Origin: Mesorhizobium australicum | GTDB lineage: Bacteria; Pseudomonadota; Alphaproteobacteria; Rhizobiales; Rhizobiaceae | Reading direction: 5' to 3' | Length of the DNA: 64,000 nucleotides | Assembly: GCF_900177325.1 (NCBI RefSeq) | Contig: NZ_FXBL01000004.1 | Location: forward strand, 2,232,001-2,296,000 | Part shown: positions 37,723 to 45,044 of the stretch, piece by piece | Layout: each line of letters opens with the position of its first letter | Position numbering within the stretch: the first letter of the stretch is position 1 | Program-made: the position numbers and the translations under genes | The notes under the pieces: model-generated | The model's input: only the letters and a program-made list of their open reading frames with translations | Databases searched by the model: none | What the model was told of the DNA's origin: nothing

Positions 37723-37880
37723 GGCAGTAGGCAGTAGGCAGTAGGCAGTAGGCAGTAGGCAGTAGGTGCAGGACTTCATGAGCCCAACTATTGCCGTTTC
37801 GCTTATGTTGCGGCCTGACCAAGCGGTTTGTAGTTCTCCTACTGCCTACTGCCTACTGCCTACTGCCTACTGCCTACTGC
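37723..37880. repeat. inverted heptanucleotide array pair 1 (terL-portal junction)
   Basis: Six perfect tandem copies of GGCAGTA (37723-37764) are followed by a 71-bp unique spacer, five perfect copies of the complement TACTGCC (37840-37874) and a partial copy. The two arms could form a long imperfect hairpin. The portal gene's ribosome binding site begins after it. The spacer has no gene. Confidence 0.9.
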
Positions 37881-37930
37881 GTCACTCCGCTCACCATTCG
37901 ACCGCAACAAACTCCAAGGAGGTAGCCTCG

Positions 37931-39139
37931 ATGGCTTGGACCTGGCCGTTCGCCGGGCGCGGACGTGTGCGCCTTTCAGAGACCCTGGAGAGGCGCGAGC
38001 CGGTCGCCTCGCCAGTAGCTTCGACGCAAGTGGCGGCAACCAAGGCGTCGTCCGGTTTCGTGGCGCTGCACATGCAGGGCGAGGCGGCGTGGACCAGGCG
38101 GGACTATGCCGGGCTGGCGCGGCAGGGCTACATGATGAACCCGGTCGCGCATCGCTGCGTGCGGCTGGTGGCGGAGGCGGCGGGCGCCGCGCCGCTCGTG
38201 CTCTACCAGGGCGCGCAGGAGCTGGAGCGGCATCCGGCGCTGGAGCTGCTCGCCGCGCCCAATCCGCGCCAGACGGGCGCCGCCTTCATGGAGGCGCTGG
38301 CCAGCCACCTGCTGATCTCGGGCAATGCCTATATCGAGATGGCGGAGGCGAGCGAGGACGCGCGGGAACTGCATCTGCTGCGACCGGACCGGGTGAGCGT
38401 CGTGGAGGATGCTGGCGGCTGGCCGGTGGCGCTCGACTATCGGACGGGCAAGGCCAAGCGGCGCATTGCGCTGGGCGAAGAGGCGCTGCACCTGGCGCTG
38501 TTCCACCCGCTCGACGACCACTACGGCTTTCCGCCGCTGGAGGCGGCGCTGACGGCGCTCGACCTGCACAATGCATCGGGGCGCTGGAACAAGGCGCTGC
38601 TCGACAATTCGGCCCGGCCCTCCGGCGCGCTGGTCTATGCGCCGAAGGAGGGCGGCAACATGACCGACGAGCAGTTCGACCGGCTGAAGGTCGAACTGGA
38701 GCAGACCTACTCGGGCGCGGCCCATGCCGGGCGGCCGATGGTGCTCGACGGCGGGCTCGACTGGAAGGCGATGGGGCTGACGCCGAAGGATATGGACTTC
38801 CTCGAGGCGCGCAACGGCGCCGCGCGCGACATCGCGCTCGCCTTCGGCGTGCCGCCGATGCTGCTCGGGATACCGGGCGACAACACCTATGCCAACTATC
38901 AGGAGGCCAACCGGGCCTTCTACCGGCTGACCGTCCTGCCGATGGTCGGCCGGATCGCGGACGCGTTTTCGCAATTCCTGTCGGGCCGTTTCGGCGAGGA
39001 GCTTCGGCTCTGGTACGACCCCGACGGGATCGAGGGCCTATCTCTGGAGCGCGAGGCGCTGTGGCGCCGGCTGCAGGCGGCGGACTTCCTGAGCGAGGAC
39101 GAGAAGCGGGAGGCGGTGGGGTATGGGAAGAGGCAGTAG
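37931..39139 (+). CDS. GTA portal protein (HK97 family)
   Basis: ATG 37931 has AAGGAGG at 37916-37922 upstream; product 402 residues. HK97-type portal features include YAGLARQGYMMNPVAHRCVRLVAEAA near the N-terminus, LISGNAYIE, HPLDDHYGFPPLEAA and the C-terminal GVPPMLLGIPGDNTYANYQEANRAF. The dodecameric portal forms the DNA channel at one capsid vertex and docks the terminase. The final residues GKRQ and the TAG stop (39137-39139) are encoded by the first unit of repeat array 2, so the array insertion has set the protein's end. The frame is open upstream through array 1, but that part is rejected. Confidence 0.92.
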   Translation: MAWTWPFAGRGRVRLSETLERREPVASPVASTQVAATKASSGFVALHMQGEAAWTRRDYAGLARQGYMMNPVAHRCVRLVAEAAGAAPLVLYQGAQELERHPALELLAAPNPRQTGAAFMEALASHLLISGNAYIEMAEASEDARELHLLRPDRVSVVEDAGGWPVALDYRTGKAKRRIALGEEALHLALFHPLDDHYGFPPLEAALTALDLHNASGRWNKALLDNSARPSGALVYAPKEGGNMTDEQFDRLKVELEQTYSGAAHAGRPMVLDGGLDWKAMGLTPKDMDFLEARNGAARDIALAFGVPPMLLGIPGDNTYANYQEANRAFYRLTVLPMVGRIADAFSQFLSGRFGEELRLWYDPDGIEGLSLEREALWRRLQAADFLSEDEKREAVGYGKRQ

Positions 39140-39227
39140 GCAGTAGGCAGTAGGCAGTAGGCAGTAGGGAAGAAGATCCTTCCGTGCCGGATAGCCTTAC
39201 TCCGACTACTGCCTAAGCCCTACTGCC
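39132..39227. repeat. inverted heptanucleotide array pair 2 (portal-DUF6107 junction)
   Basis: Five perfect copies of GGCAGTA (39132-39166) are followed by a 31-bp spacer and a degenerate opposite arm (39198-39227) with two intact TACTGCC units and decayed units between them. The left arm overlaps the last eight bases of the portal gene and provides its stop. Confidence 0.85.
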
Positions 39228-39248
39228 TCCCCCAAGGGATCATCCAAC

Positions 39249-39572
39249 ATGACAGATCTGTCGAACACGGCCTGGCTGTGGGTCGCGAAAGGGCTTGGCG
39301 CGGTGGCGGGGTCGGCGATCTCGATCGCCTATGTGCTGCCGAAAGGACGCCGCGAGGCGGCGATCCGGTTTGCGGTGGGCGTCGTCGCGGGGCTCGTCTT
39401 CGGCGGGGCGACCGGCATCAAGATCGCGGCGGAGCTCGAGATCGCAGATCGGCTGGGGCCGGTCGAGACGACGCTGATGGGCTCGGCGGCGGCGAGCCTG
39501 TGCGCCTGGTGGGCCGTGGGGCTCGTCTCGCGCCGGCTGGCGCGCAAGCCAGCGGCCGCGGCGCGCGACTGA
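39249..39572 (+). CDS. DUF6107 family membrane protein in GTA cluster
   Basis: This protein of 107 residues has three hydrophobic segments at about 8-30 (WLWVAKGLGAVAGSAISIAYVL), 40-60 (FAVGVVAGLVFGGATGIKI) and 78-97 (GSAAASLCAWWAVGLV), consistent with a small membrane protein. It lies where RcGTA has its small ORF3.5 between portal and protease. DUF6107 members are found at this place in rhizobial GTA clusters. The role is unknown. Confidence 0.75.
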   Translation: MTDLSNTAWLWVAKGLGAVAGSAISIAYVLPKGRREAAIRFAVGVVAGLVFGGATGIKIAAELEIADRLGPVETTLMGSAAASLCAWWAVGLVSRRLARKPAAAARD

Positions 39573-39636
39573 TCGCGGGCGGCGTCGCCCCGTAGGCCGG
39601 CACGGAGCCAGGCAGCACAATCACAAGGAGAGCGAG

Positions 39637-43782: not shown

Positions 43783-44117
43783 GCGTGAACCGGCACCGCG
43801 GCGAGATCGCGGCGACGTTTGACGGCAAGCCGTTCAGGCTTTGCCTGACGCTCGGCGCGCTGGCCGAGCTGGAGGATGCGTTTGCAGCCGAGGACCTGTC
43901 GGCGCTCGTGGCGCGCCTTTCCGCAGGACGGCTGTCGGCCTCGGACATTGTGCGTATCCTCGGCTGCGGGCTGCGCGGTGCCGGACACGCGGTGAGCGAC
44001 GACGAGGTGCGCGCGATGCGCTGCGAGGACGGCATTGCCGGCTTTGCGCGGATCGTGAGCGAACTTCTGACGGCGACGTTCGGCAGCGCGAAGGAGCGCC
44101 CGTCCACGGACCCTTAA
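43779..44117 (+). CDS. GTA gp10 family protein
   Basis: This protein of 112 residues has the GTA_gp10 signature: NRHRGEIAATFDGKPFRLCLTLGALAELEDAFAAEDLSALV, then SASDIVRILGCGLRGAGHAVSDDEV. It lies between tail tube and tape measure genes and, with the next short gene, fills the place of the tail assembly chaperone pair. In contrast with the prophage there is no slippery heptamer at its end. Confidence 0.9.
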   Translation: MSVNRHRGEIAATFDGKPFRLCLTLGALAELEDAFAAEDLSALVARLSAGRLSASDIVRILGCGLRGAGHAVSDDEVRAMRCEDGIAGFARIVSELLTATFGSAKERPSTDP

Positions 44118-44161
44118 GTGCCGCAGCGGGCGCGCCGGCGGCCTTTCCCTGGGCGCAGGCG

Positions 44162-44347
44162 ATGACCATCGGGCTTGGCCTGCTGCGGCTTTCACCAAAG
44201 GATTTCTGGGCGATGAGCCCGCGCGAATTCGACCGCGCGGTGCGCGTGCTGTTTCCAGCGGGAGACGGCGCACCCGGCCGTGCGTCGTTCGAGGCGCTGA
44301 TGCGCCGCTTTCCGGATGAGGAGAAGGACGGATGGACGAAGAGGTGA
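44162..44347 (+). CDS. GTA tail assembly chaperone (ORF10.1-like)
   Basis: The conserved sequence MTIGLGLLRLSPKDFWAMSPREFDRAV followed by SFEALMRRFPDEE identifies the short chaperone of the rcc01693/TIGR02216 family. ATG 44162 gives 61 residues. The conserved part seems to begin slightly earlier (FPWAQAM), but no acceptable start lies upstream in this frame, so either 44162 is used or translation enters from the gp10 gene. The end overlaps the tape measure start by 16 bp. Confidence 0.7.
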   Translation: MTIGLGLLRLSPKDFWAMSPREFDRAVRVLFPAGDGAPGRASFEALMRRFPDEEKDGWTKR

Positions 44348-44898
44348 TCGTCTCGGTCAGGGCGGACACGGCGCCGTTTGCCGACGCGCTGGCGGAGCTG
44401 GAGGGCCTGGCGGACGCCTTCGGGTCGCAGCTGACCGGAGCGCTGAAGTCGGCGGTGATCGGCGGCAAGGAACTGGACGACATCCTGCGCCGCGTCGCGC
44501 TGAACCTCGCGGGCATGGCGCTGAACCAGGGCCTGGCGCCGCTGCAGTCGCTGTTCGGCTCGTTCTTTTCCGGCCTGCTGGGCGGGATCCTGCCCTTCGA
44601 GAAGGGCGGCGTGCCGGGGCGCGTGACCCCGTTCGCGGCCGGCGGCGTGGTCGCCGCCCCGACCTATTTCGGCATGCAGGGCGGGCTCGGCCTGATGGGC
44701 GAGGCGGGCGCGGAGGCGATCCTGCCGCTGCAACGCACCGCCGACGGGCGTCTGGGCGTGGCGGCGGGCGGCGGTGCGGCCACGCAGACGATCGTGTTCA
44801 ACGTGACGAGCCCCGACGCGGCCTCCTTCCGCAAGTCCGAGGCGCAGATCTCCGCGATGCTGGCGCGAGCGGCGTCGAGGGGGATGAGGGGGATTTAG
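44332..44898 (+). CDS. GTA tape measure protein (ORF11-like), short
   Basis: This tape measure has 188 residues, short as is usual in GTAs. The N-terminus [25 protein letters not shown] and the amphipathic middle [27 protein letters not shown] match phage tape measure and GTA gp11 proteins. The C-terminus has [20 protein letters not shown] and [20 protein letters not shown], the tail end shared with longer tape measures. By the rule that tape length sets tail length, it implies a far shorter tail than the 638-residue prophage tape. Repeat array 4 starts five bases after the stop. Confidence 0.9.
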
Positions 44899-44902
44899 GG
44901 GA

Positions 44903-45044
44903 GGCAGTAGGCAGTAGGCAGTAGGCAGTAGGCAGTAGGCAGTAGGCAGTAGGCAGTAGGAAGCATCCTCCCTGCATGTCTTGCCGCGGCTGTTTTGCTG
45001 TCCTGCAATCCTTCCCTACTGCCTACTGCCTACTGCCTACTGCC
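44903..45044. repeat. inverted heptanucleotide array pair 4 (tape measure-DUF2460 junction)
   Basis: Eight perfect copies of GGCAGTA (44903-44958) are followed by a 58-bp spacer and four perfect copies of TACTGCC (45017-45044). It is the longest left arm of the four loci. The DUF2460 gene starts 21 bp after it, without a strong ribosome binding site. Confidence 0.92.

Follow-up and report, generated by a model that had tools for sequence, protein, structure and literature searches.

Inverted pairs of tandem heptamer arrays between genes of a Mesorhizobium gene transfer agent are probable ORF-less members of a dispersed class of intervening sequences

Four inverted array pairs in the GTA cluster

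A window of the genome of Mesorhizobium australicum (NCBI RefSeq assembly GCF_900177325.1, contig NZ_FXBL01000004.1, positions 2,232,001 to 2,296,000), by which we mean this whole stretch of 64,000 nucleotides, holds a gene transfer agent (GTA) cluster with inverted pairs of short tandem repeats at four gene junctions. We found that such pairs form a genome-wide family and that elsewhere they enclose genes of the S23/IVP family, also inside 23S rRNA; the GTA pairs probably belong to the same class of elements and lack its open reading frame (ORF).

Tandem Repeats Finder was run on the whole 64-kb window with a minimum score of 40. The junctions terL-portal (J1), portal-DUF6107 (J2), capsid-connector (J3) and the one upstream of DUF2460 (J4) follow one plan, in which a G-rich array of 7- or 8-bp units, a spacer of unique sequence and a C-rich array in inverted orientation succeed one another (Table 1). 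An earlier note, made from the sequence alone, had described four such pairs with 4-8 copies per arm and none elsewhere. The pairs are real, as judged by Tandem Repeats Finder and by reading of the sequence, but the right arm of J2 falls below this copy number because it has only two, interrupted TACTGCC units. The window indeed contains no other array of period 7 or 8, whereas the genome does (see below). Among 10 scanned proteins, Pfam recognised terminase, portal, DUF6107, prohead protease, capsid, connector, tail tube, DUF2460 and baseplate hub, and thus the gene labels of the earlier note at the junctions, except for the ORF upstream of J4, called tape measure there, for which the Pfam scan gave no match. 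Portal and capsid end inside the arrays of J2 and J3, with their stop codons at 39137-39139 and 41499-41501, and the arrays of J1 and J4 start 7 bases past the end of terL and 3 bases past the end of the upstream ORF, respectively.

The predicted RNA folds were compared with 200 dinucleotide shuffles per pair and amounted to -145 kcal/mol for J1 (z -11.9), -64.9 kcal/mol for J2 (z -4.4), -138.9 kcal/mol for J3 (z -8.9) and -105 kcal/mol for J4 (z -6.0). For each pair, 0 of 200 shuffles folded as well, in agreement with the hairpin-forming capacity that had been proposed. Rfam gave no match at the family gathering score in the region 36-46 kb; its weak microRNA-precursor matches there are an effect of the long stems only.

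Table 1 Array pairs and neighbouring genes in the GTA cluster (window positions)
Feature	Position	Strand	Copies or Pfam match
terL, cistron upstream of J1	36362..37714	+	Terminase_6N/6C
J1 left G-rich arm, (GGCAGTA)6, after terL stop	37722..37766	+	6.4 copies
J1 spacer, reverse complement of the G004 spacer	37767..37837	.	
J1 right C-rich arm, before portal	37838..37880	-	6.1 copies
portal	37931..39139	+	Phage_portal
J2 left arm, (GGCAGTA)5, portal stop codon inside	39131..39168	+	5.4 copies
J2 spacer	39169..39206	.	
J2 right arm, two TACTGCC units split by TAAGCCC, before DUF6107	39207..39229	-	
DUF6107 gene, downstream of J2	39249..39572	+	Pfam match
capsid, upstream of J3	40266..41501	+	Phage_capsid
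J3 left arm, 8-bp GGGGAGTA/GGGCAGTA units, capsid stop codon inside	41493..41570	+	
J3 spacer	41571..41620	.	
J3 right arm, mixed GGGGAGTA-/GGGCAGTA-type units, before connector gene	41621..41690	-	
head-tail connector, downstream of J3	41701..42270	+	Pfam match
ORF called tape measure in the earlier note, upstream of J4	44332..44898	+	open frame, no Pfam match
J4 left arm, (GGCAGTA)8	44902..44960	+	8.4 copies
J4 spacer	44961..45014	.	
J4 right arm, before DUF2460	45015..45045	-	4.4 copies
DUF2460, downstream of J4	45066..45716	+	Pfam match

A genome-wide array family

Pattern searches of the own genome (5.86 Mb) revealed arrays at at least 19 sites, 15 outside the GTA and 4 inside it, on a stretch of 7.2 kb. 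Therefore, punctuation specific to the GTA was rejected as the sole account. What the genome scan left of the proposed GTA link is an enrichment, since four sites in 7.2 kb were matched by only 6 of 200,000 uniform placements. Three further site pairs lie less than 5 kb apart and, therefore, own-genome sites tend to cluster. Seventeen sites were read (J1-J4 and 13 others, the sites at 2752 and 3070 kb being left out), and an inverted partner, identified by eye and often imperfect, was seen at 14 of them. A stop-codon cassette (TAG occurs in all frames of GGCAGTA arrays) was rejected as not general, since arrays of GGCAGTC and GGCGAAT have no stop codon in any frame. At 1170.6 and 1172.0 kb (L032), two elements 1.4 kb apart have spacer and right-arm sequence in common, as if one element had copied the other locally.

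The same junctions in related genomes

GGCAGTA arrays of three copies were present in 4 of 7 genomes of the genus and arrays of four copies in 8 of 121 genomes of a family sample. A species-genome collection (genome_contigs) was scanned for GGCAGTA pairs with a spacer of 30-60 bp only; this gave at least 106 stretches, and the matches listed (80 titles) include Mesorhizobium, Brevundimonas, Hyphomonadaceae, Acidobacteria, Chloroflexi, Saprospiraceae, Cytophagales and Clostridiales. With gene calls that are simple longest ORFs, the flanking genes of 107 GGCAGTA pairs from these loci were convergent in 31 cases, co-directional in 27 and divergent in 4; for the others, a clear neighbour was missing on one or both sides (29) or the contig ended too close by (16). 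Between stop codon and arm, the median distance was 2 bp, and 99 of 109 values lay within -25 to +30.

In the following, G000 is the own genome and G001-G006 are relatives. The portal-DUF6107 junction carries an array pair in G003, G004, G005 and G006 with differing units (GGCAGTA in G003 and G004, GGCGAAT/GGCGAGT in G005 and a mixture of GGCAGTC, GGCAATC and GGCAGTA in G006), and both arms switch the unit together between relatives. The J3 pair was not found at the same junction of G003-G006 (the middle of G006 being checked with a three-copy pattern only); in G003, this capsid-connector junction holds two units of GGCAGTC. At terL-portal or portal-DUF6107, the genes of several relatives are separated by only 1-43 bp, free of tandem repeats. 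A role specific to the GTA, as the earlier note had considered, is thus unsupported because there are sites outside the GTA, the repeat occurs in several phyla and the J3 pair is missing in relatives.

Of the 20 arrays with 7-bp units in the relatives' 21 GTA loci, 14 are accompanied by an inverted partner no more than 160 bp away and 2 by a direct partner; at 1,000 or 2,000 bp, no inverted partner was seen. The G-rich arm comes first in all 15 paired 7- and 8-bp arrays of these loci and in 177 of 180 paired arrays of the genome_contigs loci, which were selected by pattern. In G004, the J1 spacer is the reverse complement of the G000 spacer (local score 56 vs 6) between unchanged flanks.

Two other features were seen in these clusters. 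The terL-portal junction of L157, L158 and L159 (G005, G002 and G003) contains a cargo of about 1 kb beside a heptamer or octamer array; this cargo comprises a small antitoxin-like ORF (DUF1778-like) and a GNAT-like acetyltransferase ORF. The 196-bp gap in the window holds a palindrome (43210-43347) with 49-nt arms that are 84% complementary and a sequence unlike the arrays. By eye, it resembles palindromes near L041, L043 and L160, and it appears to belong to a different dispersed repeat, not to the heptamer class.

S23/IVP genes between paired arrays

At 2424 kb of the own genome (C4:2424 kb), a 123-aa ORF fills the spacer between GGCAGTA arms, and the same is found at the same place in G004. 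The ORF was identified as PF05635 (23S_rRNA_IVP, S23) with E-values of 8.8e-39 (own genome) and 2.9e-39 (G004). It also matches TIGR02436 (four helix bundle protein) and, weakly and below the cut-off of that model, the retroelement protein Avd. A further PF05635 gene of the own genome, at 3007.6 kb, has GGTGAAT arms. Among solved structures, XCC0516 (2gsc, E 1.3e-21) comes closest to the G000 protein.

PF05635 is present in 5 of 7 genomes of the genus, 35 of 121 of the family sample and 50 of 299 of a phylum sample. In the family sample, it was found in 7 of the 8 genomes with four-copy GGCAGTA arrays, the own one included, compared to 28 of the 113 others (Fisher p 6.7e-4). Furthermore, a PF05635 gene was found in 19 of the 20 genomes to which GGCAGTA-pair loci led, but in 0 of 14 control genomes, a comparison that uses 21 loci picked for taxonomic spread among the 80 listed (L066 excluded).

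Next to these genes, inverted arrays are the rule. In a first set of 67 IVP loci, for which flanks of 170 bp were compared, an inverted match of at least 11 bp was found at 55 loci but in only 291 of 4,422 mismatched flank pairs; a direct match of this length was found at 13 of 67. The full set of 111 IVP loci gave 107 distinct genes with long enough flanks, of which 74 have an inverted match at the same threshold, compared to 19 of 839 control ORFs and 0 of 19 in a first small control taken from IVP loci. The control of 839 ORFs is conservative, since its loci were partly chosen for arrays. PF05635 loci were the best-scoring ones and, therefore, decayed copies are under-sampled; 17 further regions were chosen from PF05635 matches without a locus. 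The genes are not independent because the window's family contributes about 45 of the 107 and a single site, nuoC-nuoD, accounts for 24 of the 46 rows of the protein tree described below.

The best period was 7 for 68 of the 107 genes, 8 for 7 and unclear for 32; in the phylum set alone the signal was weaker, with a clear period 7 at 21 of 44 loci. The 5' arm is purine-rich in 71 of the 74 matching genes. Units flanking IVP genes (GGTGAAT, GGCAGTC, GCGAATA, GGGGAGTA, GGCGAGT, GACAGTC, GGCAGCA, GGGTGCT, GGAATTT and GGACGGT) differ from site to site and are usually alike in both arms; across the IVP loci L177-L305, a nearly free unit sequence goes along with a period of mostly 7, sometimes 8. 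By simple longest-ORF calls, both neighbours are co-oriented for 54 of 108 distinct IVP genes.

A search for IVP genes in phage records gave no match at E 1e-5; 42 plasmid records match PF05635. Twelve plasmid loci, 10 of them cyanobacterial, were picked among the 25 listed of these 42 records, and 10 of the 12 have an inverted match of at least 11 bp; L300 has no clear array and L301 has long direct arrays. Three of the 12 loci, on cyanobacterial plasmids, have the IVP gene within a CRISPR operon (L295, L301 and L304), twice as cas6-IVP-cas4 and once as cas10-IVP-cmr3.

IVP elements inside 23S rRNA

The genome G361 has two identical-looking IVP loci (L278 and L279) inside LSU rRNA, as identified by Rfam, that are bordered by degenerate inverted heptamer arrays with an inverted match of 13 bp and a period-7 score of 1.57, just under the cut-off of 1.6. 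An intergenic IVP copy of the same genome has GAGTGAG-type units with a period-7 score of 1.93 and a longest exact inverted match of 9 bp. Thus, the architecture of the intergenic elements is common to the intervening sequences (IVS) of 23S rRNA. On plasmid AZO_p2 of Azospirillum lipoferum, a heptamer-flanked IVP gene without listed annotation (L303) has surroundings that by eye resemble the rRNA flanks of L278, and it may be a 23S IVS as well.

Filled, empty and ORF-less junctions

Between nuoC and nuoD, G000, G001, G003 and G006 hold an IVP element with differing units, in G000 with the nuoC stop codon inside the array, and the site is empty in G004 (10-base gap) and G005 (8-base gap). At another junction, between proteins ending in WVLDD and starting with MLLGRTANG, the IVP form is present in seven genomes (L192, L204 and L206-L210; L220 is a duplicate of L192), and an ORF-less GGCAGTA pair takes its place in Mesorhizobium sp. 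NFR06 (L067). Hence, the first site exists filled and empty, and the second with and without the ORF.

The unit varies together with the IVP protein. Protein identity and unit distance at different sites correlated with r -0.35 (0 of 2,000 permutations, 62 loci), a set in which L177 and L178 count as different although they are the same site of two species. With this corrected, a set drawn mainly from the family, but probably with L276 of another family in the order, gave r -0.56 (0 of 5,000 permutations, 32 loci). Both comparisons used only loci with a clear unit, and genome relatedness was only partly controlled. The correlation fits movement of whole elements or recognition of the unit by the protein.

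Origin of the GTA array pairs

Taken together, we consider it probable that the GTA pairs are ORF-less members of a dispersed class of intervening sequences that sit between cistrons. In its fuller form, such an element would consist of a purine-rich heptamer array, a gene for the S23/IVP four-helix-bundle protein and an inverted array, and the class would include the 23S rRNA IVS. The elements lie between cistrons, at or next to the stop codon of the upstream gene, and the array often provides this codon. Once transcribed, the arms would form a long hairpin and, by analogy to rRNA IVS, this hairpin would be a target of RNase III, which would excise it from the polycistronic GTA mRNA, or cut the mRNA there, at four points. 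The resulting pieces would be terL, portal, DUF6107 to capsid, connector to the fourth ORF, and DUF2460 onward. The flanking cistrons would be freed as excision of an rRNA IVS gives fragmented but working rRNA, and this cutting would make the insertion tolerable. Slippage, together with copying or recombination between the arms, would maintain their likeness. RNase III processing, mobility with its enzyme and any effect on GTA expression are inferences.

J1-J4 have the terminal inverted repeats of an S23/IVP element, with long stems (z -4.4 to -11.9), and its terminal tandem heptamers, J3 having octamers, which also occur at 7 of the 107 IVP loci. They lie in a GTA operon, not in 23S rRNA, and have no PF05635 gene.

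Several observations weigh against this assignment. By the PF05635 model, which was itself checked, neither the window nor the 21 GTA loci nor the 106 genome_contigs loci contain an IVP gene. No IVP remnant was found in 93 short spacers and, therefore, internal deletion of the IVP gene as the origin of the spacers is without support; a match of 18 nt between the J1 spacer and an IVP gene (E 0.009) was not upheld. Three of the 17 sites read in the own genome are one-armed, and G002 has GGCAGTA arrays but no PF05635 match. Among the 107 IVP genes, 33 have no inverted match of 11 bp and 32 no clear period, though some of these misses are false: the arms of L181 are visible by eye yet were not scored, and the right arm of L290 and L292 lies inside the open frame. 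Only 1 of 9 pairs of orthologous spacers is inverted, the others being forward or undecided, so that the recombination points suggested in the earlier note have one direct sign, the J1 spacer reversed between two species. Finally, a tree of 46 IVP proteins, with good support for only 6 of 43 inner branches and no shuffled control, shows 6 changes of site and 23 of the exact unit. The proteins thus group mainly by site, a pattern that agrees more with long residence than with frequent movement.

The most serious alternative, which we regard as rather unlikely, is that G-rich heptamers arose at gene ends by neutral slippage, that template switching in the hairpin made the inverted partner and that IVP genes came later as passengers, with no element moving at all. 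It would account for array lengths that differ between species at one site and for the position of J3 at the G-rich end of the capsid gene, an end that is also G-rich in the array-less G004. The spacers without IVP remnants and the grouping of the proteins by site speak for it too, and the heptamers of Xanthomonas are likewise unexplained, their function being left open in the accessible text of PMC4692102. However, slippage would hardly put the G-rich arm first so regularly, tie IVP genes to arrays in several phyla and in 23S rRNA, or let the unit follow the IVP lineage across different sites.

An improbable explanation is a host function at the GTA, where hairpins would protect or destabilise upstream mRNAs and set module ratios, like intercistronic REP hairpins. 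The strong RNA folds, the clustering of sites in the GTA and the paired arrays with changed units at the same junctions of several relatives would agree with it, but most own-genome sites lie elsewhere, the J3 pair was not found in G003-G006 and several relatives have short, repeat-free gaps at these junctions. Intrinsic terminators dividing the GTA modules would explain long stems after stop codons; they are very improbable and were rejected because no stem with a T-run was detected at J1-J4, the 36-46 kb region gave 4 terminator-like matches compared to a shuffle mean of 3.9, and at 1170.6 kb an apparently ordinary terminator comes, by eye, after the array. DNA or RNA G-quadruplexes, as proposed for GGGAATC arrays, are scarcely credible either: the GGG tracts of J3 have a compatible spacing, but the units of J1, J2 and J4 hold only GG, compared to the G-tracts of at least 3 in at least 4 units of Rehm 2015, and some IVP-flanking units elsewhere have no three-G tract.

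The assignment of the GTA pairs to the intervening sequences can be extended to a wider proposal, which we put forward tentatively and as possible rather than probable. Heptamer pairs across bacteria, including those of Xanthomonas, Nostoc and 23S IVS, would be the hairpin ends of one ancient mobile class that inserts exactly between cistrons or in rRNA and is removed at the RNA level. The S23/IVP protein would recognise its own unit and mobilise ORF-less copies, four of which would have invaded this GTA. This would unite three puzzles, namely the heptamers at gene ends, the origin and role of 23S IVS and the purpose of the common four-helix-bundle S23/IVP genes. If true, mRNAs as well as rRNAs of bacteria carry intervening sequences with a gene of their own, and such elements sit inside core (nuo) and accessory (GTA, cas) operons. 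The earlier interpretation is partly supported, its option of selfish short repeats in tolerant spots having come closest; the link to S23/IVP had been missed.

Comparison with known systems

The earlier note had missed that inverted heptamer pairs are already in print for Xanthomonas. The accessible text of PMC4692102 describes heptamers of Xanthomonas (GGGAATC) and Nostoc (GGGGA(C/T)T) near stop codons on the coding strand, with lengths that vary between species, and counts 70 convergent pairs in Xcc and 75 in Xac. Like these, the GTA arrays are G-rich and adjacent to stop codons, and they share the inverted pairs with Xanthomonas; they differ in the unit. The main text of PMC4692102 contains none of the terms "S23", "four helix", "intervening" and "23S". 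In two genomes, GGGAATC-type arms surround IVP genes (L290 and L292), which suggests that the Xanthomonas repeats may belong to the IVP element class, too.

In the IVS of Coxiella burnetii, according to the accessible text of PMC4990558, the S23p ORF is preceded by tandem GACAGAT heptamers whose copy number varies, the element has a terminal stem of 28 bp, and its cleavage by RNase III in vitro is reported; XCC0516 is given there, without that tag, as an X. campestris S23p structure. The GTA elements share with 23S rRNA IVS the terminal inverted repeats that form a stem and the tandem heptamers. Unlike these, they lie between protein genes and have no ORF.

Thus, inverted heptamer pairs (Xanthomonas, PMC4692102) and heptamers at one rRNA IVS S23p ORF (PMC4990558) were already known from the accessible texts. 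Among the matches listed, the open-licence literature gave no link of S23/IVP genes outside rRNA to paired heptamer arrays, and a text search for GGCAGTA gave nothing on these arrays. Relative to the literature found, heptamer pairs joined to S23/IVP genes in operons of several phyla and the ORF-less GTA form appear to be new.

Two other repeat classes are similar in part. The TAACTGA repeats of Beggiatoaceae, according to the accessible text of PMC4679880, are direct arrays mostly upstream of start codons, with one inverted repeat; like the arrays described here, they are intergenic heptamer arrays with a patchy distribution over phyla. REP, BIME and REPIN sequences are, as far as described in the accessible sources, dispersed intergenic hairpins like the array pairs but, unlike REP, BIME and REPIN, the arrays have no conserved core; their unit varies by site and both arms usually agree.

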